A stretch of DNA of 64,000 bases from Mesorhizobium sp. PAMC28654 (lineage in GTDB: Bacteria; Pseudomonadota; Alphaproteobacteria; Rhizobiales; Rhizobiaceae): assembly GCF_020616515.1 (NCBI RefSeq), contig NZ_CP085135.1, positions 5,813,001-5,877,000 on the forward strand, given 5' to 3'. Position 1 is the first letter of the stretch. Each line of letters opens with the position of its first letter. The translations under genes were made by a program, and so were the position numbers. Of this stretch, positions 16,339-29,799 are shown piece after piece. The notes beneath the pieces are model-generated. The model made no database searches and was not told the DNA's origin. It saw nothing but the letters and a program-made list of their open reading frames with translations.

Positions 16339-17283
16339 TCATCCCAGAATCGCATCCGGTCCGGCACCGCAGACGATGGCGCAGACGCGCTCGCCTTTCT
16401 TCACCTGCACCCGGCCCTCGGCCAGTGCTGCAATGGCGGCGGCGCCGCTGAGGTCGGCGGCGAGGCCCATTTCGAACCACAGGCTTTTGGCGGCGAGCAG
16501 CATCTCGTCGTCGTCGACCAGCACGATCTCATCGACCTTGTCGCGGACGATTTCGAAGATGCGGTCGTCGGTCTTGGCGCAGGCCATGGTCGCCACCGAG
16601 GTCGTCACCTTGTCCAACGCCACATTGCGGCCGGCTTCGAGCGCGCGCAAAAGCACCGGCGAGCCCGCCGCCTCGATGCCGACGACGCGCGCATGCGGCG
16701 CCAGCGCCTTGATCGCGGTTGCCACGCCACTGACCAGCCCGCCGCCGCCCATGGCGACCAGCACCGTGGTGACATCGGGCATCTGGTCGAGGATTTCGAG
16801 CCCGACCGTGCCTTGTCCGGCGACCACGGCCGGGTCCGCGAAAGGGTGGAAATAGACAGCGCCGGTCTCGCTGACGAAGGCCTGCGCCGCCTCGTTGGAT
16901 TCATGCCAGGCCGATCCGACGATGCGGGTGGCCGCACCCCAGGCCCGCAGCTTCTCGATCTTGGCCGGTGAAGCGTTGGTCGGCAGGAAGATGGTGGTCG
17001 GCACGCCGGCCATGAAGCCCGCGCGTGCGGTGGCGATGCCGTGGTTACCGCCGGACGCGGTGACAATGCCGCGCGTCAGCGCGGCGCGGTCGAGCGACAA
17101 GAGTTTGTTGGTGGCGCCGCGTGCCTTTAACGATCCGGTGACCTGCAGCAGTTCCAGCTTGAGCATCAGGTCGACGCCACCGGCCAGCGGCGTCTTCAGA
17201 TTGCCGGCGGCGATCATCGGCGTGCGCCTGACATTGCCCTCGATGCGGGCGGCAGCAGTGCGGATGTCGTCGAGCGCAATCAC
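16339..17283 (-). CDS. PLP-dependent threonine/serine dehydratase-family enzyme (EutB-like)
   Basis: A 314-residue fold-type II PLP enzyme. Lys53 in VTGSLKARGA would form the Schiff base, SGGNHG (77-82) and GGGGL (179-183) bind the cofactor, and VCGAGPDAI near the end completes the fold. There is no C-terminal ACT domain, so it is a catabolic-type dehydratase. Relatives named EutB occur in hydroxyectoine degradation. It overlaps the upstream deacylase gene by 4 bp and belongs to the leftward operon with an amino-acid-type ABC importer. Such enzymes release a reactive enamine, which fits the Rid-domain protein encoded nearby. Substrate is inferred, not shown. Confidence 0.82.
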   Translation of the reverse strand: MIALDDIRTAAARIEGNVRRTPMIAAGNLKTPLAGGVDLMLKLELLQVTGSLKARGATNKLLSLDRAALTRGIVTASGGNHGIATARAGFMAGVPTTIFLPTNASPAKIEKLRAWGAATRIVGSAWHESNEAAQAFVSETGAVYFHPFADPAVVAGQGTVGLEILDQMPDVTTVLVAMGGGGLVSGVATAIKALAPHARVVGIEAAGSPVLLRALEAGRNVALDKVTTSVATMACAKTDDRIFEIVRDKVDEIVLVDDDEMLLAAKSLWFEMGLAADLSGAAAIAALAEGRVQVKKGERVCAIVCGAGPDAILG

Positions 17284-18296
17284 GCCAGTTCTCCTTCATA
17301 GCGGGTGGCGACGGTGACGCAGCAATTGCCGACGACGACACGGCCGGGCTGGCGGCGGCCATAGACGATGCCGTCCGACAGATAGCGCACGGTTTCGGGC
17401 GTGCGGCCGGGATCGGCCAGATTGTGGATGCGGCCGGCGTCCTCGCCGGCATGCACCTCGGCGCCCAGCGCATGGAACGGCTCGAACACGCCGTCCGTCG
17501 TGGCCAGCACATAGCCGTCATGGCCGGGAATACGCAGGATGTTTTCCGGGCGCGCGGCAGGTGGCTTGCCGGTCGGCGGCAGCACGCCGAGATGGCTGAG
17601 CACATTGCGCACCCCCTTGCGGCAGATGCCGAGCGCATCGAGCGAGACGGTGCCGGCGCCCGCCATCTCGGTGCCGACCGTGGTCAGTCCGGCCCGCACC
17701 GACGTGGCTGTCGAGGTGCGCGGCTCGCCGAGATTGTCGATGACGACGGTGAGCGGCGCGTCGAAGGCCAGCACCGCTTCCATGTTGCGCTTGCGGTGGG
17801 CGGCGTCGGGCGCCGGCTCGATGATGGCGCTGGGCAGGATGTTGAGCGAGGAGCCGCCGGAGTGCAGATCGACATAGGCATGGCCGAGCGGCATGACGAT
17901 GTCGCTGACATAGGCCGAGATCTGCTGGGTGATGGTGCCCGCCGGGTCGCCTGGAAAGGTGCGGTTGAGGTTCAGCCCGTCGACCGGCGAGGTGCGGCGG
18001 CCGGCCAGCACGGCGGGCAGATTGATCGCCGGCAGGAAGATGATGCGGCCGCTGACCATGCCGGGGTCGAGTTCGCGGATGAGTTCGCCAAGCGTAATCG
18101 GCCCCTCATATTCGTCACCATGGTTGCCCGCCTGCAGGATGACGGTCGGCCCGTTGCCATTGCCGATCACGGCAATCGGGATGCGGGTCGCGCCCCAGGC
18201 GTCGTCATGCGGCGAATGCGGGATGTCGACGAAGCCGATCTGCTTGCCGGAGCGGTCGAAGTCGATGGTGGTGCGGGCGGTGGACATGCGGGCCAT
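17280..18296 (-). CDS. Succinylglutamate desuccinylase/aspartoacylase-family deacylase (DoeB/EutE-like)
   Basis: A 338-residue zinc hydrolase of the AstE/AspA (M14-like) family. The zinc site is visible as GNHGDEYEG (His59, Glu62) and YVDLHSGG (His145); NLNRTFPG at 109-116 is the family's substrate loop. The closest remembered relatives are N-alpha-acetyl-diaminobutyrate deacetylases (DoeB, EutE) of ectoine breakdown, which share the DAWGA(T/V), GNHGDEYEGP and RTSPVDGLNLNR patterns. It overlaps the EutB-like gene by 4 bp. It would remove an acyl group from a diamino acid or a similar compound taken up by the adjacent transporter. Confidence 0.8.
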   Translation of the reverse strand: MARMSTARTTIDFDRSGKQIGFVDIPHSPHDDAWGATRIPIAVIGNGNGPTVILQAGNHGDEYEGPITLGELIRELDPGMVSGRIIFLPAINLPAVLAGRRTSPVDGLNLNRTFPGDPAGTITQQISAYVSDIVMPLGHAYVDLHSGGSSLNILPSAIIEPAPDAAHRKRNMEAVLAFDAPLTVVIDNLGEPRTSTATSVRAGLTTVGTEMAGAGTVSLDALGICRKGVRNVLSHLGVLPPTGKPPAARPENILRIPGHDGYVLATTDGVFEPFHALGAEVHAGEDAGRIHNLADPGRTPETVRYLSDGIVYGRRQPGRVVVGNCCVTVATRYEGELA

Positions 18297-18378
18297 GTTT
18301 CTCTTTGAAACTCTTGCGGAGATGGGAGGTGGGCGATGGAGGGCGGCGGGAGCGGAAAACCCCCGCCGTTGAAAAAGG

Positions 18379-19167
18379 TCAGATTGGCGGCAGGCTCGGC
18401 AGGGTGGTGCCGATCCATTTTTGCGACAGTGCCGAGAGCGAGCCGTCGAGCAAGCCGAGATGGATGTAGGTGTCGAGCCAGCGCAGCAGCTCGGGGCTGC
18501 CCTGCTGGATGCCGATGTAGCAGGGCGAGAACTGCAGGATGAATTTCGGCTTCAGCTGCACCTTGGGGTCCTTGTCCATCAGGTCCTTGGCGACGACGTC
18601 GGCGGTGGCAAGCAACTGTGCCTGGCCGGAGGTGAAGGCGGCGGCGGCGGTGGCGTCATCGTCGAAGCGCACGATCTTGGCGTTGGGTGCTGCCTTGGTC
18701 AGCTCAAGGTCCTGCGTCGTGCCGCGAGCCACGGCGACGGTCTCGTCCTTGAGGTCGGCGGGGCTTTTCAGCGCGATGCTGTCGGGGCCGAAGACGCCGA
18801 TCGAAAGTGCCGCATAGGGCGAGGTGAAGGCGATCTGCAGCGCGCGTTCCGGCGTCGCGCCCATGGCGGCGATGACGATGTCGAGGCGGTCGGTGACGAG
18901 ATAGGGCACGCGGTTGGCGCCGGTGATCTGCTGCAACTCCAGCTTGACGCCCAGCGCTTCGGCGATCTTCCTGGCCATGTCGACATCAAGGCCGACCGGC
19001 TCGTTCTTGGCGTCGACCGAACCGAAGGGCGGCACGTCGATGGGAACGCCGATGCGCACCGTGCCGGCGGAGAGGATTTTCTGCAGGTCGGCCGCCCGGG
19101 CCGGCATCGCCGAGACTGCGCCGGCCAGGAGCACGGCTGTGACGATCCTGGTAAGATGCTTGAACAT
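18379..19167 (-). CDS. Amino-acid-type ABC transporter substrate-binding protein (family 3)
   Basis: A 262-residue periplasmic binding protein with a signal peptide (MFKHLTRIVTAVLLAGAVSA, cleavage near ARA-A). The family 3 pattern follows: VRIGVPIDVPPFGSVDAKNE, then GLDVDMARKIAEALGVKLEL and the DIVIAAMGATPERALQIAF block. It delivers a polar amino acid or amino-acid-like compound to the permeases encoded just upstream in the same leftward operon. In EhuB of ectoine uptake the fold is the same, but the aromatic ligand cage cannot be checked here. Confidence 0.88.
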   Translation of the reverse strand: MFKHLTRIVTAVLLAGAVSAMPARAADLQKILSAGTVRIGVPIDVPPFGSVDAKNEPVGLDVDMARKIAEALGVKLELQQITGANRVPYLVTDRLDIVIAAMGATPERALQIAFTSPYAALSIGVFGPDSIALKSPADLKDETVAVARGTTQDLELTKAAPNAKIVRFDDDATAAAAFTSGQAQLLATADVVAKDLMDKDPKVQLKPKFILQFSPCYIGIQQGSPELLRWLDTYIHLGLLDGSLSALSQKWIGTTLPSLPPI

Positions 19168-19201
19168 GGAACTTCCCCTTTTTCTGGTTGGACTTCTTTT
19201 C

Positions 19202-19933
19202 CTAGTGAAGGACGGCGTTCAGGAAGCTCCTGAGTTCGGCCGTACGAGGCTCGAGCAAGGTCTCACGCGCAGGCCCATCCTCGTGGATGCGGCCTTCGTG
19301 CATGAAGATCACGCGGTCGGCGACGTTCTTTGCAAAGTTCATCTCGTGGGTGACGAGCATCATGGTCATGCCTTCGCTGGCGACACTTTCGAGCACGCGC
19401 AGCACCTCGCCTACGAGTTCGGGGTCGAGCGCGGAGGTGATCTCGTCGAACAGCATCAGGGTCGGCTGCATGGCCAGCGAGCGCGCGATGGCGACGCGCT
19501 GCTGCTGGCCGCCCGACAATTCGTCGGGATAGGCAAGCAGCTTGTCGGCGAGGCCGACCTTGGTCACCACGGCGCGGGCGACTTCGCGGGCGGCCGGCGT
19601 GTCGAGCTTGCGCACCAGCTTCAGCGCCAGCATGACATTGCGCTCGACATTGAGATGCGGGAACAGATTGTAGCTCTGGAACACCATGCCGGCGCGCTGG
19701 CGCAGAAGGTTGAGGTCTGCCTTGGGCGCGGTGACGTCGATGCCGTCGACGACGATGCGGCCGGCCTGCACCTTCTCCAGCCCGTTGATACAGCGAAGCA
19801 TGGTCGACTTGCCCGAGCCCGAGCGGCCGATGATGGCGACGATCTCGTCCTTTTCCATGGTGAGCGAGATGCCCTTCAGCACCTCGACGGCGCCGAAGCG
19901 CTTGCGAATATCGGCGATTTCAACGAGCGACAT
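19202..19933 (-). CDS. ABC transporter ATP-binding protein, polar amino acid type
   Basis: A 243-residue ATPase with Walker A GRSGSGKS at 36-43, Q-loop VFQSYNLFPHLNVERNV, signature LSGGQQQRVAIARSLAM, Walker B LMLFDEITSALDPE and H-loop VTHEMNFAKNVADRV, as in GlnQ/HisP. It powers uptake through the two permeases whose genes precede it, and overlaps the nearer one by 14 bp. With the binding protein it makes a complete four-gene importer of the EhuABCD/polar amino acid class. Confidence 0.92.
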   Translation of the reverse strand: MSLVEIADIRKRFGAVEVLKGISLTMEKDEIVAIIGRSGSGKSTMLRCINGLEKVQAGRIVVDGIDVTAPKADLNLLRQRAGMVFQSYNLFPHLNVERNVMLALKLVRKLDTPAAREVARAVVTKVGLADKLLAYPDELSGGQQQRVAIARSLAMQPTLMLFDEITSALDPELVGEVLRVLESVASEGMTMMLVTHEMNFAKNVADRVIFMHEGRIHEDGPARETLLEPRTAELRSFLNAVLH

Positions 19934-20570
19934 GAAGTCTCCTTTCCAGCACGCGGGCGAGCTGGGAGAGGGAAAAGCAGATGACGAAATAGATGGCGGC
20001 GGCGGTGAGATAGACCGGCAGCGGGGCGAAGGTCGCGCCGCTGATGATCTGGCTGGCGCGGGTCAGCTCGACGAAGCCGACCAGCGCGGTGAGCGAGGTG
20101 TTCTTCACCAGCTGGACCAGGAAGCCGACGGTGGGCGCGACCGAGATGCGGATCGCCTGCGGCAGCACGACATGGCTGAGCCGCTGCGCATAGGTGAGGC
20201 CAAGGGCGGCACCTGCCTCCCATTGCCGCTGCGACACCGATTGCAGGCTGCCGCGCCAGATCTCGCCGAAGAAGGCCGAAGCGTAGATCGAGAGCGACAG
20301 CGCCGCCGCCGTCCAGGCACTGACCGAGAGCCCGACGAGCGGCAGGGCGAAGAAGAAGACGAAGAGCTGGCCGAGCAGTGGCGTGCCCTGGATCAGATTG
20401 ATCCAGGCGATGGCCAGCCAGTTGAACGGCCTGAACGGGATGACGCGCAGCACGGCGACGACGACGCCAAGAAGCCCGCCGCCGACCGTGGCGGTGAGTG
20501 CCAGCAGCAGCGTCCAGCGCGCCGCCTCGATGAGGTAGACGATGTCGGCGCCGGCGAATTCGCGGATCAT
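19920..20570 (-). CDS. Amino-acid ABC transporter permease (HisM/GlnP family)
   Basis: A 216-residue inner-membrane permease with about five hydrophobic segments. The N-terminal half carries the His/Glu/Gln/Arg permease pattern (LLLALTATVGGGLLGVVVAV). The EAA loop SVSQRQWEAGAALGLTYAQR, followed by LSHVVLPQAIR, contacts the ATPase. It overlaps both neighbours (4 bp with the upstream permease, 14 bp with the ATPase gene), consistent with coupled translation. Confidence 0.9.
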   Translation of the reverse strand: MIREFAGADIVYLIEAARWTLLLALTATVGGGLLGVVVAVLRVIPFRPFNWLAIAWINLIQGTPLLGQLFVFFFALPLVGLSVSAWTAAALSLSIYASAFFGEIWRGSLQSVSQRQWEAGAALGLTYAQRLSHVVLPQAIRISVAPTVGFLVQLVKNTSLTALVGFVELTRASQIISGATFAPLPVYLTAAAIYFVICFSLSQLARVLERRLHVAR

Positions 20571-21238
20571 CGGCGCGGCCTCCGGACGAAGACCAGCCAG
20601 TAGATGCCGGCGAAGAAGGCGCGGAAGCCCAGCGTCAGCACGAGATAGGAAATGGTGATCAGCGTGTAGGTCTCGAAGGAGCGATAGGTGCGCGAGTCGA
20701 TGAAGGCGGCCTGGTGGAACAGCTCGGTGGCGCCGATCGAGGAGACGACGCTGGTGGTCAGCATGATCAGCACGAACTGGCTGGCCAGCGCCGGGTAGAT
20801 GGTCTTGACCGCCTGGAACAGCACGACATGGCGAAAGGTCTGGCCGGCGGTGAGGCCGAGCGAGCGGCCGGCCTCGACCTGGCTCTGGCGCACGGATTCG
20901 AAGCCGGCGCGCAGGATTTCCGCGCCATAGGCGCCCATGTTGATCGAGAGCGCGATGAGAGCCGCGGTGTTGGCGCCTAGCCTGATGCCGATCGAGGGCA
21001 GGCCGAAGAAAACGATGAACAGCTGCACCAGCAGCGGCGTGTTGCGCAGCGCCTCTACATAGACGCGGGCGCAGGCGCGCAGCGGCATCAGCGGGCTGAT
21101 CGAGGCCATGGCCACCACAAGGCCGATGGCCAGCCCGCAGATCATGGTGATGACCGAGAACTGCAGGGTCAAGAGCACGCCTTGCACGATCTCCGGTATA
21201 TAGCGCAGCAGGATGTCAAATTTGAAATTATAGCTCAT
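20567..21238 (-). CDS. Amino-acid ABC transporter permease (HisQ/GlnP family)
   Basis: A 223-residue inner-membrane permease and the first gene of the leftward importer operon. The start at ATG 21238 (MSYNFKFDILLRYIPEIVQG) is preferred: this is how family members begin, and a longer frame to 21307 would reach into the palindrome-bearing promoter region. The permease loop SVRQSQVEAGRSLGLTAGQT and FRHVVLFQAVK are clear. It pairs with the second permease to form the channel. Confidence 0.9.
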   Translation of the reverse strand: MSYNFKFDILLRYIPEIVQGVLLTLQFSVITMICGLAIGLVVAMASISPLMPLRACARVYVEALRNTPLLVQLFIVFFGLPSIGIRLGANTAALIALSINMGAYGAEILRAGFESVRQSQVEAGRSLGLTAGQTFRHVVLFQAVKTIYPALASQFVLIMLTTSVVSSIGATELFHQAAFIDSRTYRSFETYTLITISYLVLTLGFRAFFAGIYWLVFVRRPRR

Positions 21239-21305
21239 GGATGCAGAGCGCCCCTTATGCAACCGAGCGGAGATCGCTATTTTCCGCGCGGATTTGCTGG
21301 ACATC

Positions 21306-21315
21306 ACGCTAGCGT
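21306..21315. promoter_or_regulatory. 10-bp perfect palindrome upstream of importer operon
   Basis: ACGCTAGCGT reads the same on both strands. It lies 68 bp upstream of the first permease gene and 12 bp from the second palindrome, between the divergent importer operon and iclR-type gene. A possible operator or promoter-overlapping site. Confidence 0.35.
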
Positions 21316-21326
21316 CGCTTCATATG

Positions 21327-21341
21327 TGACGTCAAGCGTCA
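21327..21341. promoter_or_regulatory. Inverted repeat just upstream of the IclR-type gene
   Basis: TGACG-TCAAG-CGTCA has perfect 5-bp arms. With flanking bases (ATATGTGACG against the complement of CGTCATCTAT) eight of ten positions pair. It ends 4 bp before the IclR start codon, so it is well placed for autoregulation and for control of the divergent importer operon. Confidence 0.55.
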
Positions 21342-21344
21342 TCT

Positions 21345-22121
21345 ATGAAACGGATGCAAATGACGGACGACAAGCTCAACTACAGTGCGCCGGCCCTGGA
21401 AAAGGGGCTGGATATCCTCGAATTGCTGGCCAATGCCGGCCAGTCCATGGGCACGCGCCAGATCGCCGAGGAGCTGGGACGGTCGAAGAACGAGATCTTC
21501 CGCATGGTCCATGTGCTGCTGGCGCGCGGCTACATCCAGCGCGACGAGAGCGGCGAGGGGCTGATGCTGTCGAACAAGCTATTCGGGCTCGGCATGCAGA
21601 CGGCGCGCGCCCGCGACCTGGTCAGCACGGCGGCACCCATCGTCGAGCGCTTCGCCGAGGAGGTGCACCAGGCGGCGCATCTGGTCGTCGCGCATCGCGG
21701 CGAGACGGTCATCATCGCGGCCGCATCGGGCGGCGCGGACATGAACTTCTCGCTCAAGCTCGGCTATCGCCGGCCGCTGGCCGACGCCCATTCCGGCCTT
21801 GTGCTGATGGCGTTCCAGCCCAAGCCGGTACGCGACAAGATGATCGCCGAATGCCTGATGCTGATGCGCGAGCCGCCGGACCAGACGACGCTTGCCGCCG
21901 AGCTCGACGCGGTGCGCGAACGCGGCGCCATCATCCATGAGAGCCGCGACATCATCGGCGTGACCGATGTGGTCTGCCCGATCATCGCCGGCGACGGCCG
22001 CGCGGTGGCCTGCGTGACGGTGGCGGCGGTCAGCCGGCGCAGTGCCGCGCCCAATTTCGAGGCCATGCTGGCGCGGCTGAAACTTGCCTGCGCCGAGATC
22101 GCCCATGAGCTGGGCGGGTAG
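21345..22121 (+). CDS. IclR-family transcriptional regulator
   Basis: A 258-residue regulator. The N-terminal winged helix includes ALEKGLDILELLANAGQSMG and TRQIAEELGRSKNEIFRMVH. The C-terminal IclR effector domain includes LVVAHRGETVIIAAASGG, GYRRPLADAHSGLVLMAF and the conserved end VTVAAVSRR. It is divergent from the importer/dehydratase/deacylase operon and convergent, 6 bp apart, with the DoeA-like hydrolase gene, so it probably senses the pathway's substrate. ATG codons at 21354 and 21360 are alternative starts; no strong ribosome-binding site decides. Ectoine clusters usually use EnuR instead, which is a notable difference. Confidence 0.88.
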   Translation: MKRMQMTDDKLNYSAPALEKGLDILELLANAGQSMGTRQIAEELGRSKNEIFRMVHVLLARGYIQRDESGEGLMLSNKLFGLGMQTARARDLVSTAAPIVERFAEEVHQAAHLVVAHRGETVIIAAASGGADMNFSLKLGYRRPLADAHSGLVLMAFQPKPVRDKMIAECLMLMREPPDQTTLAAELDAVRERGAIIHESRDIIGVTDVVCPIIAGDGRAVACVTVAAVSRRSAAPNFEAMLARLKLACAEIAHELGG

Positions 22122-22127
22122 GCCGAT

Positions 22128-23285
22128 TCAACCCGCAACGATGATGTCGCGCGGTGTTTTCGCCAGCACTTCGGCACCTGTCGGCGTTACCAGCACATTG
22201 TCGATGATGCGGGCGCCAAGCCCCTCGGCGCCGATGAAGACGGGCGGCTCGATGGTGACGACCATGCCGGCCTTCAGCACATGCGGGCTGTCGCCGATCA
22301 TGTGCAGCGGCTCGGCCCAGCTCGGCGGAAAGCCCGGTCCCAGCGCATAGCCCGATGTGTGGACACGATGGGGTTCGAGCCCGGCCTCGCCAATGACGGC
22401 GCGTGCTGCCTGGTGCGGCACGGTTGCGGGCACGCCGTCGCGGATAACGGCGATCATGGCATCGCTGGCGCGCAGCACGATGTCATGCAGCTCCACCATG
22501 CGTGGCGTCGGCTTTCCAAGCGCGAAATTGCGGCCGATGGTGGCGGTGTAGCGGTTGAAGGTGGCGCCGAATTCGATGTTGCCGAAATCGCCGGGTTCAA
22601 GCCGGCGCGCGGTTGGCGCGCCATGGCTGTAGGCCGAGCGCGGGCCGGAGACGAGGTTGATCGGGCTGGCGGCGATGCCGCTGCCGTTGCGCAGCAAGGT
22701 CTCGTGGATGCCGCCGGCCAGCGCCAGTTCCGATGCACCCGCCGCCAGTTCGCCGGCGAAACGCTGCATGCCGAGGTCGGCGAGGTAGGCCGCGTGCCGG
22801 ATGTAGCTGATCTCGGCCGGCGACTTCACCAGCTTCAGCCCGGCGATCAGTTCTGTGGCCTCGATGAGCAGGGCATCGCCGATGAGTGCGCGAAGGCCGA
22901 GATAATGATGCGGGTGGAGGTAGTAGGCGGGCACTTCGAGGCCGACGCGCCTACCCAGCACGCCGTGGCGCCGCGCCACGCCGGCAAAGGCGGCCACCGG
23001 ATCCTCGTTCTCGCCGCCGCCATGGCCATGCACTTCGCCGGCAGCTGAGTCCGTTTCGAATTCATGCACTTCGCCCTGGCGGGTGAGCACGACGAGCGGC
23101 TCGTCGCGCGCGCCGACCAGCAGGCACTGGAATTCCTGGTAGCTCTTGGCGTCGCTGCCGGTCAGCCAGTGGATGGAGCCAGGGTGGACGGCGATCAGCC
23201 AGTCGAGGCCGACAGCGGCCATGGCGTCGCGGACGCGCGCCAGCCGGTCGGCGAACTCGACTGCGGTGAAATCGTGTTTCGACAT
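22128..23285 (-). CDS. M24/creatinase-fold hydrolase resembling ectoine hydrolase DoeA/EutD
   Basis: A 385-residue pita-bread-fold protein with an N-terminal creatinase domain (EFADRLARVRDAMAAVGLDW, then WLTGSDAKSYQEFQCLLV) and a C-terminal M24 domain. The M24 metal ligands are not conserved: where aminopeptidases have two aspartates this protein has FGNIEFGATFNRYTATIGRN. The GYALGPGFPPSWAEPLHM segment matches the GYSIGIAYPPDW region of DoeA. It is therefore likely a metal-free amide or amidine hydrolase like creatinase and DoeA. Its ATG overlaps the stop of the Rid gene in TGATG, so the two are translationally coupled. The exact substrate is inferred from neighbours. Confidence 0.72.
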   Translation of the reverse strand: MSKHDFTAVEFADRLARVRDAMAAVGLDWLIAVHPGSIHWLTGSDAKSYQEFQCLLVGARDEPLVVLTRQGEVHEFETDSAAGEVHGHGGGENEDPVAAFAGVARRHGVLGRRVGLEVPAYYLHPHHYLGLRALIGDALLIEATELIAGLKLVKSPAEISYIRHAAYLADLGMQRFAGELAAGASELALAGGIHETLLRNGSGIAASPINLVSGPRSAYSHGAPTARRLEPGDFGNIEFGATFNRYTATIGRNFALGKPTPRMVELHDIVLRASDAMIAVIRDGVPATVPHQAARAVIGEAGLEPHRVHTSGYALGPGFPPSWAEPLHMIGDSPHVLKAGMVVTIEPPVFIGAEGLGARIIDNVLVTPTGAEVLAKTPRDIIVAG

Positions 23286-24493
23286 CAGTCCCGCGTCACC
23301 GCCATCGCCTCGATCTCGACCAGCAGGTTCTCGAAGGCAAAGCCGGCGACGCGGATGGCGGTCACCGCCGGGCCGGGTTCGGGGTAGAATTCGCGCTGCA
23401 CGCGGGCGATGGTCGCGCGGGTCGCCTCTATCTCGGCCCAACTGCCCTCGGCATGGTAGTAGATATAGAGCTTGGCCACGTCGCTCTCGTCGAGCCCGCC
23501 CTCGGCCAGCGTGCGGCGAATGAATTCGAAGACGTTGCGGGTCTGCGTCTCCATGTCGTCGCCGACGGCCTGCGCCTTGTTGTCGGCCGAGATCTGGCCG
23601 CCAATGAAGGCGAGCTTGCCGATCTTCCAGCCTTGCGTGAACTGGGTGTTGGGAATGCTCCAATCCCAATGGTTGGCCGGCTGCAGCCGCTGCTTGTCGT
23701 CGCCGAGCATGCCGATGCCCTCGACCTGGATCAGCTCGTTGGCATTGCCCATGCCCTGGATGCGCAGGCCGGCACCCGCCGCCGAGGGAACCGCCATGTA
23801 GCGGCGGCGCACATTGGTCATCTTCTCCCAATAGTCGGTGACCTCGCGGCCCTCGCCGAAGAAGCGGAAATAGGTGTTCTGGCGCATCAGGCTGCTGCGG
23901 TCGCCGCCGCCGGCACGCAGCATCGTGTCGAGGTTGCGAAAAGCCTCCTCGGTCTGCACCTCGATGTCGCCGATCCCCAGCACATTGCCCTCGGCATCGA
24001 GCGAGCGCTGGCCGCCGATGAACAGCAGGTCGCCAACCTTCCAGCCATGGACGAAGGGCAGCTTCTTGCGCCAGCGCCAGTGGCCGGGCGGGTCGAGCAA
24101 CTCGCGCCTGCCGCCGGTCACCACCCAGGCGTCGACCATCAGCAGCGCGCCCTCCCGGTCGAGGCCGCAGCGGATTTCCGTGGTGGTAGGGCCGGGGGCC
24201 TTGTAATAACGCGCGCGCACGGAATCGAGCTCGTCGAGGAAGGCGCTGGTGGCATCGGCCTCGCAGCTGAAATAGACGTTGTGCTTGACCACATCGGCCA
24301 TGCCGGCGCCAACCCGGGTGACAAGTGCCGCCAGCCGCTCGAAGATGACGCGGGCCTGTCCCGCAATGTCGGCGGCCACAATGTCGCCGTTCGCGTCCGT
24401 CGCCATTATCCCGCCGACGAAGATCAGATCGCCGGCGCGGACGGCCTGTGGCGCCGAGCCCTCGACATCCCTGAATATCCGCAGTCCCACCAT
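23285..24493 (-). CDS. Protein of three tandem RidA/YjgF-like domains
   Basis: A 402-residue protein containing three Rid-fold units at about residues 13-126, 145-263 and 286-400. Each begins with a G(D/K)LxFxGG strand (GDLIFVGGIM, GDLLFIGGQR, GKLAFIGGQI). The last ends in LVEIEAMAV as in RidA. Single Rid proteins are about 130 residues and form trimers, so this looks like a covalent trimer. The arginine that binds the carboxylate in active RidA (PAR-T) is replaced in all three (PTT, SAA, PAV), so classic imine deaminase activity is doubtful. A strong ribosome-binding site (AGGGAGGGGAG) precedes the ATG. It is coupled to the DoeA-like gene and divergent from the TetR gene. Confidence 0.82.
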   Translation of the reverse strand: MVGLRIFRDVEGSAPQAVRAGDLIFVGGIMATDANGDIVAADIAGQARVIFERLAALVTRVGAGMADVVKHNVYFSCEADATSAFLDELDSVRARYYKAPGPTTTEIRCGLDREGALLMVDAWVVTGGRRELLDPPGHWRWRKKLPFVHGWKVGDLLFIGGQRSLDAEGNVLGIGDIEVQTEEAFRNLDTMLRAGGGDRSSLMRQNTYFRFFGEGREVTDYWEKMTNVRRRYMAVPSAAGAGLRIQGMGNANELIQVEGIGMLGDDKQRLQPANHWDWSIPNTQFTQGWKIGKLAFIGGQISADNKAQAVGDDMETQTRNVFEFIRRTLAEGGLDESDVAKLYIYYHAEGSWAEIEATRATIARVQREFYPEPGPAVTAIRVAGFAFENLLVEIEAMAVTRD

Positions 24494-24607
24494 ACTCCCC
24501 TCCCTGATTTTGATACTTACTTACCTGCAAGTCAGTTTGTCGTCAAATGCTGGGGACGCCGCAAAGCTTCGGCGTCCAAGGCGAACACATTTGGCTATGA
24601 TGCAGGC

Positions 24608-25219
24608 ATGGACGAGATCGATACGAGACAGGCGATCAAGGATACGGCGCTGGAGCTTCTGGTGCGGCACGGCTATCGCGGCATCAGTTTTGGCGACATT
24701 TCAGTGGCGCTAGGCACGACGCGCGCCAATATCCACTACCATTTCGGCAACAAGCAGGCGCTGGTCGACGAGGTGCTGGGCGACTACATGCAGGCGACGC
24801 TGAGCGGCTTGCGCGCTGTCTGGTCGGCGGAGGGGGCAAACTTCTCCGATCAGGTCGAGGCTATGATCGCCTACAGCCGCGCCCGCTTCCGCCACTTCAA
24901 TCCGGCCGGCACGGAAGGGCACAGCTGGAGCCTGATCTCCAGGCTGCGGCAGGATGCCGATCTTCTGGGGGACCGTGGCCGCCAGATGCTCAGCCATTTC
25001 GGCGTCGAGCTGTCGACGCTGTTTGCCGAGGCGTTGTCATCGGCTGGCCGGCGCGGCGAGCTTGCTGATAACGTCGTGCCCGCCGACGCGGCGCTGCTGT
25101 TCGCTGTTATCGCCGACAATGCCGCGCCGATCACGCTTGCCGAAGGCGGTTTTGAGCGGCTTGAACGAACCTATCGCAGCCTGCGGCAGATGATGTTACC
25201 GAAGATGTTAAGCCTATGA
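24608..25219 (+). CDS. TetR-family transcriptional regulator
   Basis: A 203-residue regulator. The TetR helix-turn-helix is clear: RQAIKDTALELLVRHGYRGI, then SFGDISVALGTTRANIHYHF and NKQALVDEVL. The C-terminal two-thirds is the variable ligand domain. It is divergent from the Rid/DoeA-like gene pair with 114 bp between starts and is likely its repressor. The intervening DNA has ACTTACTTACC...GCAAGT elements that could be the operator. ATG 24608 is the first start that matches the family. Confidence 0.87.
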   Translation: MDEIDTRQAIKDTALELLVRHGYRGISFGDISVALGTTRANIHYHFGNKQALVDEVLGDYMQATLSGLRAVWSAEGANFSDQVEAMIAYSRARFRHFNPAGTEGHSWSLISRLRQDADLLGDRGRQMLSHFGVELSTLFAEALSSAGRRGELADNVVPADAALLFAVIADNAAPITLAEGGFERLERTYRSLRQMMLPKMLSL

Positions 25220-25413
25220 TGCTGGATTAAGGGCGACATTCTGCACGGTGGTGCGGGGAGATTAGGTGTCTTGCACTCACGCTCAGGATCATCCAAATTG
25301 AACGTTTTGCGTTAGCCAACTTGCCGATACTCTACTTTAGCAACCAGCGCTCGCTGTGGCGTTTGGGTTTGGCTACGAAGTAGCTAGGCAGTGCTTTCAA
25401 ATGGGCATTATAG

Positions 25414-25857
25414 ATGTATATCATTCAAGGAAAGTATCGTATCGAGCTGCTTATTGCCCTGTTTTTAGCCGCCGTGGGATGTTTACTTTCAATAATCTTC
25501 AGAAATAGTCTGCAAAAATATGGGATTGACTACATTTACGTCTGCTGCGCCTTGATGGATCTTATTTATATATTCTCTTTATTCAAAATAATGTGCGAAC
25601 CGGATAGCGATTTTTCGCGAAAAACCAAGGAGATGTCACCTGACATTTTTCAGCCTTCTAGAGTTTTACTATTTTCAATTCTGTTCATATTCGTCTTTTG
25701 TTCCGTGTATTGGATAGGACGACCATGGATGGACTATAGGCCGTACTGGCATATTTTCGCATGGATGGGAATTCTGTTTGTTTTTTCCCTGAGTTGTATT
25801 TTCTTTCAAGAAAAATGGCTAACTGAGGAAGAGAATTTCTATGGCCGAACCATTTGA
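25414..25857 (+). CDS. Hypothetical membrane protein, AT-rich
   Basis: A 147-residue protein with about four hydrophobic segments (near residues 10-28, 38-58, 83-101 and 114-131), so probably an inner-membrane protein. Its family is not recognised. Base composition is clearly more AT-rich than its surroundings, and codon choice (many ATA, TTA, AGA-type codons) differs from neighbours, pointing to acquisition from elsewhere. It overlaps the following small gene by 17 bp, so the two form a unit. That partner is interrupted by an insertion element. Confidence 0.6.
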   Translation: MYIIQGKYRIELLIALFLAAVGCLLSIIFRNSLQKYGIDYIYVCCALMDLIYIFSLFKIMCEPDSDFSRKTKEMSPDIFQPSRVLLFSILFIFVFCSVYWIGRPWMDYRPYWHIFAWMGILFVFSLSCIFFQEKWLTEEENFYGRTI

Positions 25858-26050
25858 CTACGTCTTGAATTTCCCTGGGAAGCCGAGTCTAAAGTTTGAC
25901 GGCTATACGGGCAAATTGAGCTCCGATCTGAACGAGGCCGATTCATTATTCTGGGTCAATGAGATATCTGGCGCCTTTAAAGCTATTGCGGCGGCGTTTC
26001 CATTGGTATCAAAAGCGACTGATGTGTCGGCAATTATGCACTTGAGTTAG
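25841..26050 (+). pseudogene. Small hypothetical gene, 3' end displaced by IS1595-family insertion
   Basis: The frame starts MAEPFDYVLNFPGKPSLKFD and runs for 60 codons of native sequence up to 26020, then through the duplicated target and into the element's terminal repeat. There it ends after AIMHLS, giving 69 residues. Removing the element and one copy of the 8-bp duplication restores an uninterrupted frame (DVSQGIVKTINYVAAFS and a TGA at 28470-28472) of 82 residues. The original product is not recognised; it may be a soluble partner of the membrane protein encoded by the overlapping upstream gene. Whether the truncated form works is unknown. Confidence 0.65.
26021..26028. repeat. Left 8-bp target-site duplication of the IS1595-family element
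   Basis: GATGTGTC lies directly outside the left terminal repeat and recurs exactly at 28404-28411 outside the right terminal repeat. Eight bases is the duplication length of the IS1595 family. Confidence 0.9.
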
Positions 26051-26052
26051 CA
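26029..26052 (+). repeat. Left terminal inverted repeat of the IS1595-family element
   Basis: Twenty-four bases identical to the reverse complement of 28380-28403. They begin GGCAATT, and identity stops at base 25 (C here, G at the other end). Confidence 0.93.
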
Positions 26053-26053
26053 C

Positions 26054-26242
26054 ATGTCAGATGATACAGAATTGGCCGACAGGCCGGCACTAGAATCAAA
26101 CGAAATCGAAGTCACGCCCGAGATGATTGACGCTGGCGCGCGACTTCTTTCCGATATGTTTTCTGAAGCGAATGATTGGCTTACCCGCCAAAGGGTAGAG
26201 GGAATTTATCGCGAGATGGCTTCTCAAGCGCCCGAGAGATAA
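26054..26242 (+). CDS. Passenger ORF 1: 62-residue acidic protein
   Basis: Starts one base after the left terminal repeat and encodes 62 residues (EIEVTPEMIDAGARLLSDMF in the middle). It is predicted mostly helical and acidic. The VTPEMIDAG pattern occurs in many small proteobacterial and phage proteins of unknown role. It overlaps the convergent passenger ORF 2 by 62 bp. No function can be assigned. Confidence 0.5.
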   Translation: MSDDTELADRPALESNEIEVTPEMIDAGARLLSDMFSEANDWLTRQRVEGIYREMASQAPER

Positions 26243-26807
26243 TCCGGCCGGCTAAAGTTGCTGCCGGACTATTCAGGCGAAGAAATTCGTCGCCGAAATA
26301 GTCGACATCTAGAGATGACATGCAATAGGTAGGCCAGTTCGCTAGATCGCGTTCCTTGAACGAAGCGTATGAAGGATAGAGCGCGTAGGCGTAGTCCAAT
26401 GCCATAGCATCAACCCATTGTTTCGGGATGTAGTGGTCCACAACACCGTGCGCGATGTCATTCCTTCGAGCCGAGAAACAGGTGGCGTTCGTGAGTATGA
26501 TTTTGAATTCGCTTTGCAACTCGTCGTCGGGGAATTCCGCGAAATAAGCCTCCGTCGCGGCGCGCAACATTTGGGCTCTGCCTTCAAAAGTCCGGACAGC
26601 CACATATGCGCGGCTGGCGGCTTGGGTCGCCCCGCCAGTGACGAACGCCGAAAAGAGGATCGCGAGAATGCCTTCGTACCGCTCCCATCGTGACAAGGCG
26701 CTTCCAACGGAGGTATATACCGCCTCAGGCGATGGGTCGCCCTTTTCCGCCCAGGGTCTCCTGTCCCATGCCGCGAGCGGCTTAGGCGGTGGCATTTTCT
26801 TTGGCAT
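26181..26807 (-). CDS. Passenger ORF 2: 208-residue hypothetical protein
   Basis: Starting at MPKKMPPPKPLAAWD (26807), it encodes 208 residues; a start at 26822 would add five more. The middle holds a predicted helical bundle (SRWERYEGILAILFSAFV, later FSARRNDIAHGVVDHYIP). The RNDIAHG motif is of the kind found in HEPN-like or DUF-type helical proteins, where R-x(4-6)-H can be catalytic in RNases. That comparison is tentative. It is divergent from passenger ORF 3 and convergent with ORF 1 inside the element. Confidence 0.55.
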   Translation of the reverse strand: MPKKMPPPKPLAAWDRRPWAEKGDPSPEAVYTSVGSALSRWERYEGILAILFSAFVTGGATQAASRAYVAVRTFEGRAQMLRAATEAYFAEFPDDELQSEFKIILTNATCFSARRNDIAHGVVDHYIPKQWVDAMALDYAYALYPSYASFKERDLANWPTYCMSSLDVDYFGDEFLRLNSPAATLAGRIISRALEKPSRDKFPLPFGG

Positions 26808-26821
26808 GAGGTGTCCTCCCA

Positions 26822-26986
26822 TTGATCGATGATGAAAAAACTCTGAGTGACGTTGAAATTGCGGAACGTGAAAAGAAGGCGCTCAAGAGCCTTCTTGCAA
26901 CGCCACCGCAACCTAAGACGAAGCCGCAGAATGACGCGAGTCCGAAAAAGCGCGGTCGGCCGCCGAAGGGCGACCCAAAATCATGA
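26822..26986 (+). CDS. Passenger ORF 3: 54-residue basic protein with AT-hook-like tail, TTG start
   Basis: A TTG start at 26822 with GAGG nine bases upstream opens a 54-codon frame. The product begins IDDEKTLSDVEIAEREKKAL and ends in KKRGRPPKGDPKS. The RGRP core is that of an AT-hook DNA-binding motif. Similar short proteins accompany IS1595-type transposases in rhizobia as far as I recall, which suggests a transposition accessory or regulator. It overlaps the convergent ORF 4 by 6 bp. Its small size and unusual start make it easy to miss. Confidence 0.55.
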   Translation: MIDDEKTLSDVEIAEREKKALKSLLATPPQPKTKPQNDASPKKRGRPPKGDPKS

Positions 26987-27358
26987 CACGTGTTTCGCGA
27001 CAGAAAGTAGGCCGTAAATGGCAATGGAAATTGTGGCTATCGCGCTGATGATCGATATCACAATGGCGATAGTCGCCCTTTTGTTTGCACTTTCGGCGGC
27101 CTCTGCGGTCCGGGAAGCAGCGTCAGCCGCCCGGGAAGCTTCAGATGCAGCGTCTCGGGCAATTGCGTTGGCTTCAGCCTGGGATGCCAAGGTAGCGTCT
27201 CTCAACGCCGCTTCCTGATCCAGCCGTTTCGATTCCAGCCACTCTCTGGCAAAGCGCACATTCTCTTCGCCGTATATGTGGGTAGCCAAGTTCTGGCGCA
27301 CGGCTCTTTCGCCAAGCTTCTCAAATTCTTTCCAGCGGATTTCGACAAACTCGTTCAT
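26981..27358 (-). CDS. Passenger ORF 4: coiled-coil protein with C-terminal membrane anchor
   Basis: A 125-residue protein. The N-terminal half is soluble (MNEFVEIRWKEFEKLGERAV). The middle is an Ala-rich coiled coil (AIARDAASEASRAADAASRT), and the C-terminus is one hydrophobic helix (ATIAIVISIISAIATISIAI) that would anchor it in the membrane. No family was recognised. It lies upstream of nothing on its strand within the element and shares the transposase's direction, 54 bp downstream of it. Confidence 0.6.
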   Translation of the reverse strand: MNEFVEIRWKEFEKLGERAVRQNLATHIYGEENVRFAREWLESKRLDQEAALRDATLASQAEANAIARDAASEASRAADAASRTAEAAESANKRATIAIVISIISAIATISIAIYGLLSVAKHVS

Positions 27359-27412
27359 GAGATCGGCCCCTTTGTTTTCTTTCGCCTCCGCAAAAAGCGT
27401 TTTGCCTTTTGC

Positions 27413-28354
27413 TTAGGCGTGACCGGCTTCACGAGGCTGTCGATAAGTCAGCCGCTTGCCTTCTGCACCCTTGAGGGCTTTGGCGGCGCGCTCTGCGTCC
27501 TCGACGCCAAGACCCGAACGGTAGTTGTACCTGAAATCGAATTCGCTCAAGTACCTGTGGAGGTGGGCTTCGCTTACCGAATGATAGACGCCGTTAATGC
27601 CGCGCTTGAGGATCGAAAAGAAATTCTCGGCGGTGTTGATATGCATGAAGCCACCAAGGCGAGCGTACTCGTTAGCGGAATGGTTCACGGTGCCATGGCT
27701 GGCGTATTCTTTGCCAAGGCGTGGGTAGACCGCGCTTTCGTCCGTCATCAATGCGCTGGCTCGGTCGGCGGTCGTTACGATGATCGGGCGCACGGTATCG
27801 GCGGTGACGTTCGCAACATGGAAAGATGCAACGCGACCGTCGCGCTCGACCAGCGACAGAACGGCTTTCTTCGGTGCCGGTTCGCGGTGCGCACGGTTCT
27901 TGGCCTTGCCGCCGACATAGGCCTCGTCGGCTTCCACAACCTTGTTCTTGCCGCCAAGACCGCCAGCGGGAAGGTCTTCGCGCATTGCTTCACGGATGCG
28001 ATGCGCGAGGAACCATGCAGAGCGATAGGAGCCGATGCCAAGATTGCGCATCAACTGATGGGCGCTGATACCTTTCTTGCTGGACGCAATGAGGTGTATC
28101 GCGAGCAGCCACTTATGCAGCGGAATATGCGAGCGCTCCATAACGGTGCCTGTGCGGCAAGTGAACTTGCCCCGGCAATCGTTGCAAAGGAACATGCCAG
28201 CCTGCGTCTTGCCCGCCATGCGATGGACGCTCAAGCCGCCGCAAAGCGGGCAAGAGGCACCATTCGGCCAGCGCGAGGCTTCGATATGCTCGCGGGCTGC
28301 ATCTTCGTCATGAAAGCGGGCTTCGGAAAGGCTGGTCATTGCGGTGTTCTCCAA
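27413..28354 (-). CDS. IS1595-family transposase (ISXO2-like DDE domain)
   Basis: A 313-residue transposase (or 308 from the second Met at 28339). An N-terminal zinc ribbon has CPLCGG and CNDCRGKF. The ISXO2-like DDE domain follows: VEADEAYVGGKAKNR gives the first acidic residue, MTDESAVYPRLGK the second and NTAENFFSILKRGINGVYH the third. Length and domain order are normal, so it looks intact. It should excise or copy the element bounded by the 24-bp repeats at 26029 and 28403. Confidence 0.92.
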   Translation of the reverse strand: MENTAMTSLSEARFHDEDAAREHIEASRWPNGASCPLCGGLSVHRMAGKTQAGMFLCNDCRGKFTCRTGTVMERSHIPLHKWLLAIHLIASSKKGISAHQLMRNLGIGSYRSAWFLAHRIREAMREDLPAGGLGGKNKVVEADEAYVGGKAKNRAHREPAPKKAVLSLVERDGRVASFHVANVTADTVRPIIVTTADRASALMTDESAVYPRLGKEYASHGTVNHSANEYARLGGFMHINTAENFFSILKRGINGVYHSVSEAHLHRYLSEFDFRYNYRSGLGVEDAERAAKALKGAEGKRLTYRQPREAGHA

Positions 28355-28379
28355 TGACCAGAATATAGCGAACCTAGGC

Positions 28380-28403
28380 TGCTAACTCAAGTGCATAATT
28401 GCC
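28380..28403 (-). repeat. Right terminal inverted repeat of the IS1595-family element
   Basis: Perfect reverse complement of 26029-26052. Followed directly by the second GATGTGTC target copy at 28404-28411. Confidence 0.93.
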
Positions 28404-29337: not shown

Positions 29338-29799
29338 TCAGCCCTTCAGCTTCTTCGCGTAATAGTCGGGCGCCACAACGCCGGGTTTGGAGAACCATGC
29401 GGGCACGTCGACGCCGGAATAGAGCAGGATGTTGCCCCATGGGTCGAAGGCGCCGGTGCGCACGATGACCTTGGCCTTCCTGGCCATCTCGCCCAGGATG
29501 GTCTCGTGCGTCGTGGTCTCGAAATCGGCGTCGGGAAACAGCCGCTTCAGCTTCTCCAATAGCGGTGCATTGTGCACCGGCAGCGTGTCGGCATAGCCGA
29601 CGCGCTCGGCGATCAGGTTGGCGGCGATGGGGCCGAGCACGGTTTCCAGGTCGGGCACGTCGGGCGAGATGGCGAGGTCGATGCGCCAGGCGCTCGACGG
29701 GATCGGAAAGCCCGCGTCGCAGACGATCATCAGGTCGCCATGGCCCATCGAGGCGATGGCGTGCGACAGTTCGGCGTTGAGCAGCCGGTTGCGGTTCAT
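29338..29799 (-). CDS. rbsD: RbsD/FucU-family sugar mutarotase (D-ribose pyranase-like)
   Basis: A 153-residue protein beginning MNRNRLLNAELSHAIASMGH. The catalytic His and GDLMIVCDAGFPIP segment follow, and PWGNILLYSGV lies near the end, the RbsD/FucU pattern. It interconverts pyranose forms of a sugar for the adjoining kinase. ATG 29799 is chosen since GGAAGGA lies just upstream; a start at 29814 is possible. It overlaps the ribokinase gene by 4 bp. Length (usual 130-150) is normal. Confidence 0.88.
   Translation of the reverse strand: MNRNRLLNAELSHAIASMGHGDLMIVCDAGFPIPSSAWRIDLAISPDVPDLETVLGPIAANLIAERVGYADTLPVHNAPLLEKLKRLFPDADFETTTHETILGEMARKAKVIVRTGAFDPWGNILLYSGVDVPAWFSKPGVVAPDYYAKKLKG

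Follow-up and report, generated by a model that had tools for sequence, protein, structure and literature searches.

The window analysed here is a stretch of 64,000 nucleotides from Mesorhizobium sp. PAMC28654 (G000:C1:5813001-5877000, on NZ_CP085135.1), whose 6.70-Mb genome is a single contig. At positions 16339-25219 it carries a ten-gene cluster built around distant relatives of the proteins that break down ectoine: an ABC importer of the polar amino acid transport (PAAT) type, with two permeases, an ATPase and a substrate-binding protein (SBP); a hydrolase of the M24 fold; an AstE-family deacylase; a pyridoxal phosphate (PLP)-dependent dehydratase (DEH); a protein of three tandem Rid domains (Rid3); and regulators of the IclR and TetR families. 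The cluster is distinct from the ectoine locus of the same genome and probably imports and dismantles a different amino-acid-like compound, the substrate probably being a carboxylated, N-substituted or cyclic amino acid. Whether it is a catabolic system of its own, induced by its substrate, distinct from ectoine breakdown and working by the stepwise pathway set out below, is a question that we regard as evenly poised.

These observations suggest that the ectoine toolkit (a metal-free M24 hydrolase, an AstE deacetylase, a PLP dehydratase and a PAAT importer) has apparently been turned to at least one further compound in a bacterium that also has the ectoine genes, so that the name "ectoine hydrolase" for the M24 clade is probably wrong. 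Candidate substrates can be tested directly through the importer with its binding protein and through two local sites presumed to serve the regulators, and if the M24 substrate were found, a hydrolase clade spread over several phyla would gain a function.

Separation from the ectoine system

Is this simply a diverged ectoine cluster? A canonical ehu-eut locus lies at 2.47 Mb in the same genome and is a built-in control for how the family models perform there. EutE, EutD, EutC, EutB, EutA, EhuD, EhuB and EhuR all pass at that locus (8/8 of those scanned), with 819 bits for EutD, 640 for EutE and 563 for EutB. (EhuA and EhuC were seen only as tblastn matches of the window ATPase and permeases.) In the NCBIfam scan of the ten window genes, no protein reached a curated Doe, Eut or Ehu cut-off. 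The M24 protein scored 134 and 132 bits with the EutD/DoeA models (cut-offs 575 and 613), AstE scored 283 bits against 403 with EutE/DoeB (TIGR02994, the only family model that it matched), and DEH scored 238 and 229 bits with two EutB models (cut-offs 413). In the importer, the ATPase reached 256 of 345 bits for EhuA, the SBP 49 of 191 for EhuB, and the permeases at most 145 of 205 for EhuD and 137 of 197 for EhuC. Identity to the canonical proteins is 28% for M24, 40% for AstE and 36% for DEH. Because the window proteins fall below cut-offs that the canonical locus passes throughout, the cluster is a separate, paralogous system, which supports the distinct pathway, one of two possibilities that an earlier note on this DNA had put forward. 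The canonical hydroxyectoine route was set aside as the principal explanation, the canonical eut/ehu locus lying elsewhere in the genome.

The cluster shares with ehuABCD-eutABCDE (doeAB) a PAAT importer, a metal-free M24 protein, an AstE-family deacetylase, a Ser/Thr-dehydratase-like PLP enzyme and the order of the logic. It differs in having IclR and TetR regulators and, among the ten genes scanned, no EutA, EutC, DoeC/D or EnuR, partners that the earlier note had also found to be absent. Putative ectoine clusters from which eutE is missing are reported in other phyla, two eutD homologues being present in some of them and abgB in some (PMC13188858), and missing partners alone therefore do not exclude ectoine. 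On plasmid p1 of Aminobacter niigataensis DMFA1 (L161, NZ_CP132959.1), a 44% M24 relative lies near a second gene named as a Xaa-Pro peptidase, an EhuBCDA-annotated importer, an amidohydrolase and flavin enzymes, an apparent link between Ehu importers and M24 proteins of this kind.

A probably metal-free hydrolase beside EutD

Creatinase is a metal-independent use of the M24 fold. In the window protein, the five metal-ligand places of metal-dependent M24 peptidases (prolidase and aminopeptidase P), Asp/Asp/His/Glu/Glu in 1pv9, read E238, T249, Y313, E346 and I361. Four of the five are changed, which takes the protein out of the metal-dependent peptidases and places it with hydrolases, such as EutD and creatinase, that have lost metal ligands on the same fold. 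All 43 aligned rows have E238 and Y313, and at least 90% of them keep T249, E346 and I361, with exceptions. P320, P321, W323 and E325 are invariant as well and recur in EutD (6twk) within a GY...PPxWxE motif. Glu and Tyr also occupy the first and third ligand places in the genome's own EutD and in its EutD-like paralogues L103 and L100; five aligned metal-type paralogues (L101, L099, L104, L105 and L001) keep Asp/Asp/His. The two EutD-like, metal-free paralogues lie at L103:369-1703 (446 bits, EutD cut-off 613) and L100:872-2011 (167 bits, cut-off 575).

The alignment comprised 43 of 81 sequences (rows L025 and L091 were too short for the reference list), and the 43-row clade represents 39 of 80 loci, the window, L156 (two rows) and L158. 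In a tree of 49 rows with an outgroup of only three metal-type rows, this clade has support of 99/96 and adjoins three EutD-like rows, the two together having 95/80. The nearest named relatives of the window protein are from Mesorhizobium, and the clade is found in Hyphomicrobiales, Comamonadaceae, Planctomycetota and Verrucomicrobiota. An AlphaFold2 model (mean pLDDT 90.6, pTM 0.90) places EutD (6yo9) at rank 8 in Foldseek, with a TM score of 0.86, and creatinase (1kp0) at rank 23, with 0.84. Creatinase, a creatine amidinohydrolase, is thus alike in fold, but identity in the Foldseek alignments is 18-22% and the window holds no creatinine pathway partners; a creatininase-family gene lies near M24 in 9/80 relatives. 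Judged by its sequence, then, the hydrolase is of the metal-free type related to EutD, but is not EutD. The earlier description of it as metal-free and DoeA/EutD-like agrees with the ligand changes and with its own clade beside EutD in the tree.

Deacylase, dehydratase and importer

The deacylase matches the catalytic domain PF24827 (AstE_AspA_cat) at 117.8 bits, against a gathering threshold of 25, and so belongs to the AstE/AspA zinc deacylases. Its solved-structure matches are 3cdx (269 bits) and DoeB (6twl, 228 bits), and HGDE and HSGG motifs are seen in its sequence. The dehydratase belongs to the PLP dehydratase family, as had been proposed, but "EutB-like" is a loose label, the PRK08246 score (288 bits) being above both EutB scores. 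(In the family scans the DEH sequence began at 17280 and so lacked its first codon, the GTG start.)

What kind of ligand does the importer accept? An alignment of 28 SBPs (the window protein, EhuB and 26 from 19 relatives) was read by eye. An arginine that we take to hold the ligand carboxylate is kept in 28/28. The aspartate that presumably holds the alpha-amino group in the usual case is absent in 27/28: the window protein and those near to it have Ala there, most of the rest have Asn, and EhuB has Pro. The one protein that retains the aspartate is a second SBP of L026, which is 27% identical. These residues fit a ligand that bears a carboxylate and in which the alpha-nitrogen is substituted. 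Of the EhuB cage places, which we take to be E21, F24, Y60 and F80, only Phe24 is kept in the window SBP (by eye). The best solved match of the SBP is 2yjp, presumably a cysteine-binding protein. On the strength of that match, 2-aminothiazoline-4-carboxylate and similar sulfur rings were considered, and a literature search gave nothing usable on the genes. Mycosporine-like amino acids were weighed as candidates too.

The triple Rid protein

The earlier note had assigned the Rid protein to the released enamine. In RidA, an arginine is required for imine hydrolysis, and proteins with three RidA domains (3x-RidA) are known, according to the available part of PMC4433059. This residue (in the PAR motif; Arg105 in TdcF) is absent from the window Rid3, which has Thr, Gly and Val in domains 1-3. 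In the aligned rows the PAR place reads PTT in domain 1 (PTR in 3/15 rows), AAG in domain 2 and PAV or PVV in domain 3. Because the essential arginine is missing from all three domains, Rid3 as an enamine hydrolase is not supported, and neither is the earlier assignment as it was worded; Rid3 also travels with M24. In three loci (L067, L071 and L077), whose contigs are 3.0-12.3 kb long, Rid3-M24 is accompanied by none of the other parts scored. Single RidA-like proteins bearing PAR occur in L059 and L149, and the missing arginine is therefore special to the triple protein. An enamine step in general may still take place.

Another arginine lies four residues past the RidA place (residues 108, 244 and 381), in 15/15 rows for domains 2 and 3 and in 12/15 for domain 1, and could be a relocated carboxylate binder. 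It is possible that Rid3 has a different activity, coupled to M24. The window protein, which is without the RidA catalytic arginine in each domain, shares three tandem Rid domains with 3x-RidA proteins such as EF_0115 (PMC4433059).

Gene neighbourhoods and modularity

The neighbourhoods of M24 were taken from the best 80 of 84 relatives in a scan of genome contigs, neighbours being counted centre to centre within 9 kb. At least 8 kb was available on both sides in 43/80 loci, so that absences stem partly from short flanks. The relatives' genes were called by a composition-based script, which makes their names and starts approximate, and names given "by eye" are without a family search. The SBP was found near M24 in 36 of the 80 loci, IclR in 27, an MFS carrier in 26, AstE in 24, a PAAT permease in 23 and the ATPase in 23. 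Less frequent were Rid3 (15, including that of L021, which the gene caller missed and which was placed by hand from tblastn), DEH (15), SDR (12), TetR (11), MR_MLE (11), creatininase family (9), CnbZ (4), a class V PLP enzyme (3) and Gfo/Idh (3); eight loci had no scored family.

The window's ten-gene order is repeated in 8/80 relatives, four from Mesorhizobium (L019, L020, L021 and L037) and four from Devosia (L028, L036, L040 and L055), in which M24 is 64-70% identical. Because this order recurs, the cluster is more than chance. Conservation of the cluster, which the earlier note had made a test of its proposal, is partial: all six core parts (Rid3, permease, ATPase, SBP, AstE and DEH) accompany M24 in 10/80 loci, but each module is also found without the other. 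The whole cluster is seen on pB2-1-8, one of two Mesorhizobium plasmid records with M24, Rid3 and AstE relatives that are 88-96% identical and carry generic names only. These genes lie on plasmids of 494 and 461 kb in Mesorhizobium sp. B2-1-8 and B2-1-1 (L160 = NZ_CP083953.1, and NZ_CP083955.1). On pB2-1-8, genes for an FMN reductase and an M20 peptidase come next, no more than about 3.5 kb away.

An importer part is near M24 in 62/80 loci; it is of the PAAT type in 36 and an MFS carrier in 26, and no locus has the two together. That the importer changes from locus to locus while M24 stays suggests that the compound on which M24 acts is an imported one. Other parts change as well. An M20 peptidase is near M24 in L048, L059, L156 and L157. 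In the Comamonadaceae, a CnbZ-type protein and a creatininase-family gene join the cluster in L033, L063 and L066 (the L063 protein, the only one tested, passes the model for the 2-amino-5-chloromuconate deaminase CnbZ with 387 bits, cut-off 220), and in these loci a class V PLP enzyme stands at the place that DEH occupies in L056. L059, from Verrucomicrobiota, has its single PAR-motif RidA-like protein, its M20 peptidase and a class V PLP enzyme nearby. L156 and L157 (genomes G497 and G582) have two M24 genes each in addition to the M20 peptidase. By eye, these two loci also have genes for a luciferase-like flavin monooxygenase, an FMN reductase-like protein and LysR. Differing enzymes would thus fill the same deacylase, PLP-lyase and deaminase roles across loci.

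AstE neighbourhoods were examined at 20 of 34 places in 32 genomes, and AstE adjoins a DEH relative in 15/20. In L143, L147, L153 and L155, AstE-DEH is found with other importers, accompanied by Gfo/Idh oxidoreductases where scanned (L147, L153 and L155); L142 resembles L143 and L147 by eye, its contig ending before DEH. Because importer-AstE-dehydratase is often found without M24, the cluster consists of two modules. Among 397 genomes of the order, M24 occurs in 6 (E <= 1e-90), AstE in 32 (E <= 1e-100) and Rid3 in 1 (E <= 1e-80). M24 and AstE occur together in 3 of the 6 M24 genomes, against 32/397 overall (P = 0.008). In a tree of 30 AstE rows (made by a quick method, split or short genes such as that of L095 being omitted), the M24-linked rows are scattered over several separate places, one of them (L092) beside canonical EutE.

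Proposed pathway

The pathway that we infer, in its inducibility, reactions and order of steps, would run as follows. The ABC importer would take up a small compound that has a carboxylate and a substituted alpha-nitrogen, in the form of a ring, an amidine or an N-acyl group. M24, metal-free like EutD and creatinase, would hydrolyse a C-N bond of this compound to give an N-acyl amino acid, from which AstE, with zinc, would strip the acyl group. The PLP dehydratase would then eliminate a beta-substituent, most likely OH, from the amino acid thus freed, the resulting enamine/imine giving a 2-oxo acid and ammonia. Rid3 would act beside M24 on an intermediate, and not as an ordinary RidA imine hydrolase. 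TetR would govern Rid3-M24, and IclR the operon of importer, AstE and dehydratase. The earlier scheme of opening, deacylation and elimination is supported in outline, since M24 recurs beside AstE proteins from several lineages and, in a few loci, beside M20 peptidases; its enamine step by the Rid protein is not supported.

Several observations pull the other way. AstE is near M24 in none of the 26 MFS loci, and importer-AstE-DEH-IclR occurs without an adjacent M24 in 7/20 AstE places (L137-L141, L146 and L148; the genome of L146 has an M24 elsewhere, L158). Without the window's own genome, the sharing of M24 and AstE drops to 2/5, a weak association (P = 0.05). An Asp at the next residue of the window SBP might compensate for the lost one, and Rid3, as its alignment reads, is without the RidA arginine. 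For M24, the branches of the tree are long and its depth is unsure; the best solved match of the profile by sequence is a metal prolidase, EutD being fifth; prolidases, not EutD, head the Foldseek list; and residues 317-324 of the model, which hold the PPxW motif, have pLDDT below 50.

Enzyme superfamilies and logic are known ones, but the clades are separate and the substrate is probably new. A bolder proposal, for which the balance falls somewhat short of even, is that the M24 clade has a new metal-free specificity and heads an undescribed pathway for a cyclic or N-substituted amino acid common in the environment, with a coupled, non-RidA activity of the triple Rid protein. No description of this gene set was found in the literature searched, where other wording may exist.

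Alternative explanations

A serious rival, though an unlikely one, comes from the sugar-type neighbours in other lineages: AstE and the dehydratase would process an N-acetylated amino-sugar acid or a polyhydroxy N-acyl amino acid, and M24 would open a cyclic or conjugated form. There is precedent in the ong pathway of marine bacteria for N-acetylglucosaminate (GlcNAc1A), in which, as the available part of the report describes it, a deacetylase is followed by a PLP deaminase and the RidA-family ongD is required for growth (PMC9537276). In L147 (scanned), AstE has as neighbours a binding protein of the sugar type, a gene of the rhaM family and Gfo/Idh, and by eye L142 and L143 look the same. It stands with Gfo/Idh and an RbsB-like binding protein in L155 and with Gfo/Idh and DUF4432 in L153, and lies near NanE and NagB-like genes in L151. 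The nearest model of the MFS carrier in 26/80 M24 loci is a D-galactonate transporter, and those of the MR_MLE enzyme in 11/80 are sugar-acid dehydratases, all below cut-off. L059 and L094, from Verrucomicrobiota, have Gfo/Idh, and a xylose-isomerase-like gene of L059 recurs in L094. However, the window AstE belongs, in the quick tree, to a 7-row clade that includes none of the sugar-linked AstE rows (L143, L147, L153 and L155), the window importer is of the amino acid type, and no sugar enzyme lies in 16339-25219. The ong pathway shares an N-deacetylase followed by a PLP deaminase and a Rid-family gene, but continues to a KDG kinase, and OngD is a single 127-aa protein that is given no role in the available part of that report (PMC9537276). 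Its deacetylase OngB has a D-aminoacylase-like fold (PMC12017989, in the part available); the window deacylase, being AstE_AspA_cat, is not of this type.

Could the cluster instead be two unrelated modules side by side, importer-AstE-DEH acting on an N-acyl amino acid and Rid3-M24 on a different compound? The separate regulators, the conserved sites in both gaps and the occurrence of each module alone would agree with this. It is distinctly improbable, given the same ten-gene order in 8/80 loci, the several separate places of M24-linked AstE genes in the AstE tree and the PAAT-type SBP genes in 36/80 M24 loci. Scavenging of peptides or amides is again distinctly improbable. Here M24, as a degenerate peptidase of the Xaa-Pro type, would have N-acyl dipeptides as its substrates, AstE would remove the acyl cap and the dehydratase would take Ser or Thr. 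Prolidases are indeed the best solved matches by profile and by fold, and the plasmid records label the relatives "Xaa-Pro peptidase family protein", but four of five metal ligands are lost, E238 and Y313 are invariant in 43 rows, and the GY...PPxWxE motif is of the EutD type.

A rewired 5-hydroxyectoine route, in which M24 would give N-acetyl-3-hydroxy-diaminobutyrate, AstE would deacetylate it and the dehydratase would remove water and ammonia, is very unlikely: the chemistry is compatible, hydroxy-DABA is the product ascribed to EutD and EutE, the exact EutABC steps being uncertain (PMC8739950, in the part available), and atypical putative ectoine clusters exist in other phyla (PMC13188858), but the genome already has a canonical ehu/eut locus, M24 and AstE are only 28% and 40% identical to its EutD and EutE, the SBP keeps only the Phe24 place of the presumed EhuB cage (by eye), and H. 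elongata DoeA shares at least 48% identity with each of the 18 DoeA homologues in the doeAB set (PMC3187862, in the part available).

Organization of the cluster and its putative regulatory sites

Every gene named in the earlier note is present at its place, as judged from open reading frames (ORFs) and Pfam (Table 1).

Table 1. Genes and putative control sites of the cluster, in window coordinates.
Feature	Position	Strand	Evidence
DEH, fold-type II PLP Ser/Thr dehydratase-like	16339..17283	-	GTG start; PRK08246 288 bits (cut-off 331); Pfam PALP
AstE/DoeB-like N-acyl amino acid deacylase, zinc type by family	17280..18296	-	TIGR02994 283/403 bits; PF24827; 3cdx, 6twl
SBP, periplasmic binding protein, polar amino acid type	18379..19167	-	Family models, Pfam SBP_bac_3; carboxylate Arg kept, alpha-amino Asp replaced by Ala
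ABC importer ATPase	19202..19933	-	Family models, Pfam ABC_tran
ABC importer permease 2 (Perm2)	19920..20570	-	Family models, Pfam BPD_transp_1
ABC importer permease 1 (Perm1)	about 20567..21235	-	BPD_transp_1; start chosen, ORF open to 21307
Conserved element of IclR/permease gap, possible IclR-controlled promoter	21313..21336	-	One site with the 19-base core in genome at <=2 mismatches
IclR-family regulator, divergent from importer operon	21345..22121	+	Pfam HTH_IclR and IclR_C
M24-fold hydrolase without metal ligands, EutD/DoeA-related	22128..23285	-	Pfam Peptidase_M24 and Creatinase_N; alignments, tree, fold
Triple-domain Rid protein (Rid3)	23285..24493	-	Ribonuc_L-PSP in 3 stretches; RidA arginine absent, all three domains
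Imperfect palindrome ACTTACTTACCTGCAAGTCAGT, probable TetR operator	24515..24536	.	Sole genome site at <=2 mismatches
TetR-family regulator, divergent from Rid3-M24	24608..25219	+	Pfam TetR_N

The ORFs form two minus-strand operons, Rid3-M24 and Perm1-Perm2-ATPase-SBP-AstE-DEH. The Rid3 stop and the M24 start overlap by 1 base, and within the importer operon there are overlaps at Perm1/Perm2, Perm2/ATPase and AstE/DEH (4 bases in the last).

Both gaps between regulator and operon hold a conserved site. In the TetR/Rid3 gap this is the 22-base palindrome, whose two arms are both found in 9/12 gaps (the window and 11 relatives); the gaps of L036, L040 and L055 have one arm, in a stretch shortened by the chosen Rid3 start. 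In 100 shuffles of the window the palindrome pattern had 0 matches. The element of the IclR/Perm1 gap, CTTGACGTCACATATGAAGCGACG in the window, has variants in 9/9 extractable gaps, 3/12 loci having yielded no gap. The palindrome is probably the TetR regulator's own operator, and the second element is possibly a promoter under control of IclR.

Farther along the window, ribokinase-like and ribose-pyranase-like ORFs are seen by eye at 29338-30761, with no link to the cluster. Directly after the TetR gene, GC content drops to 47-57% at 25000-28400, and an ORF at 27413-28354 resembles an IS1595-type transposase (by eye), which could mark the edge of a mobile region.

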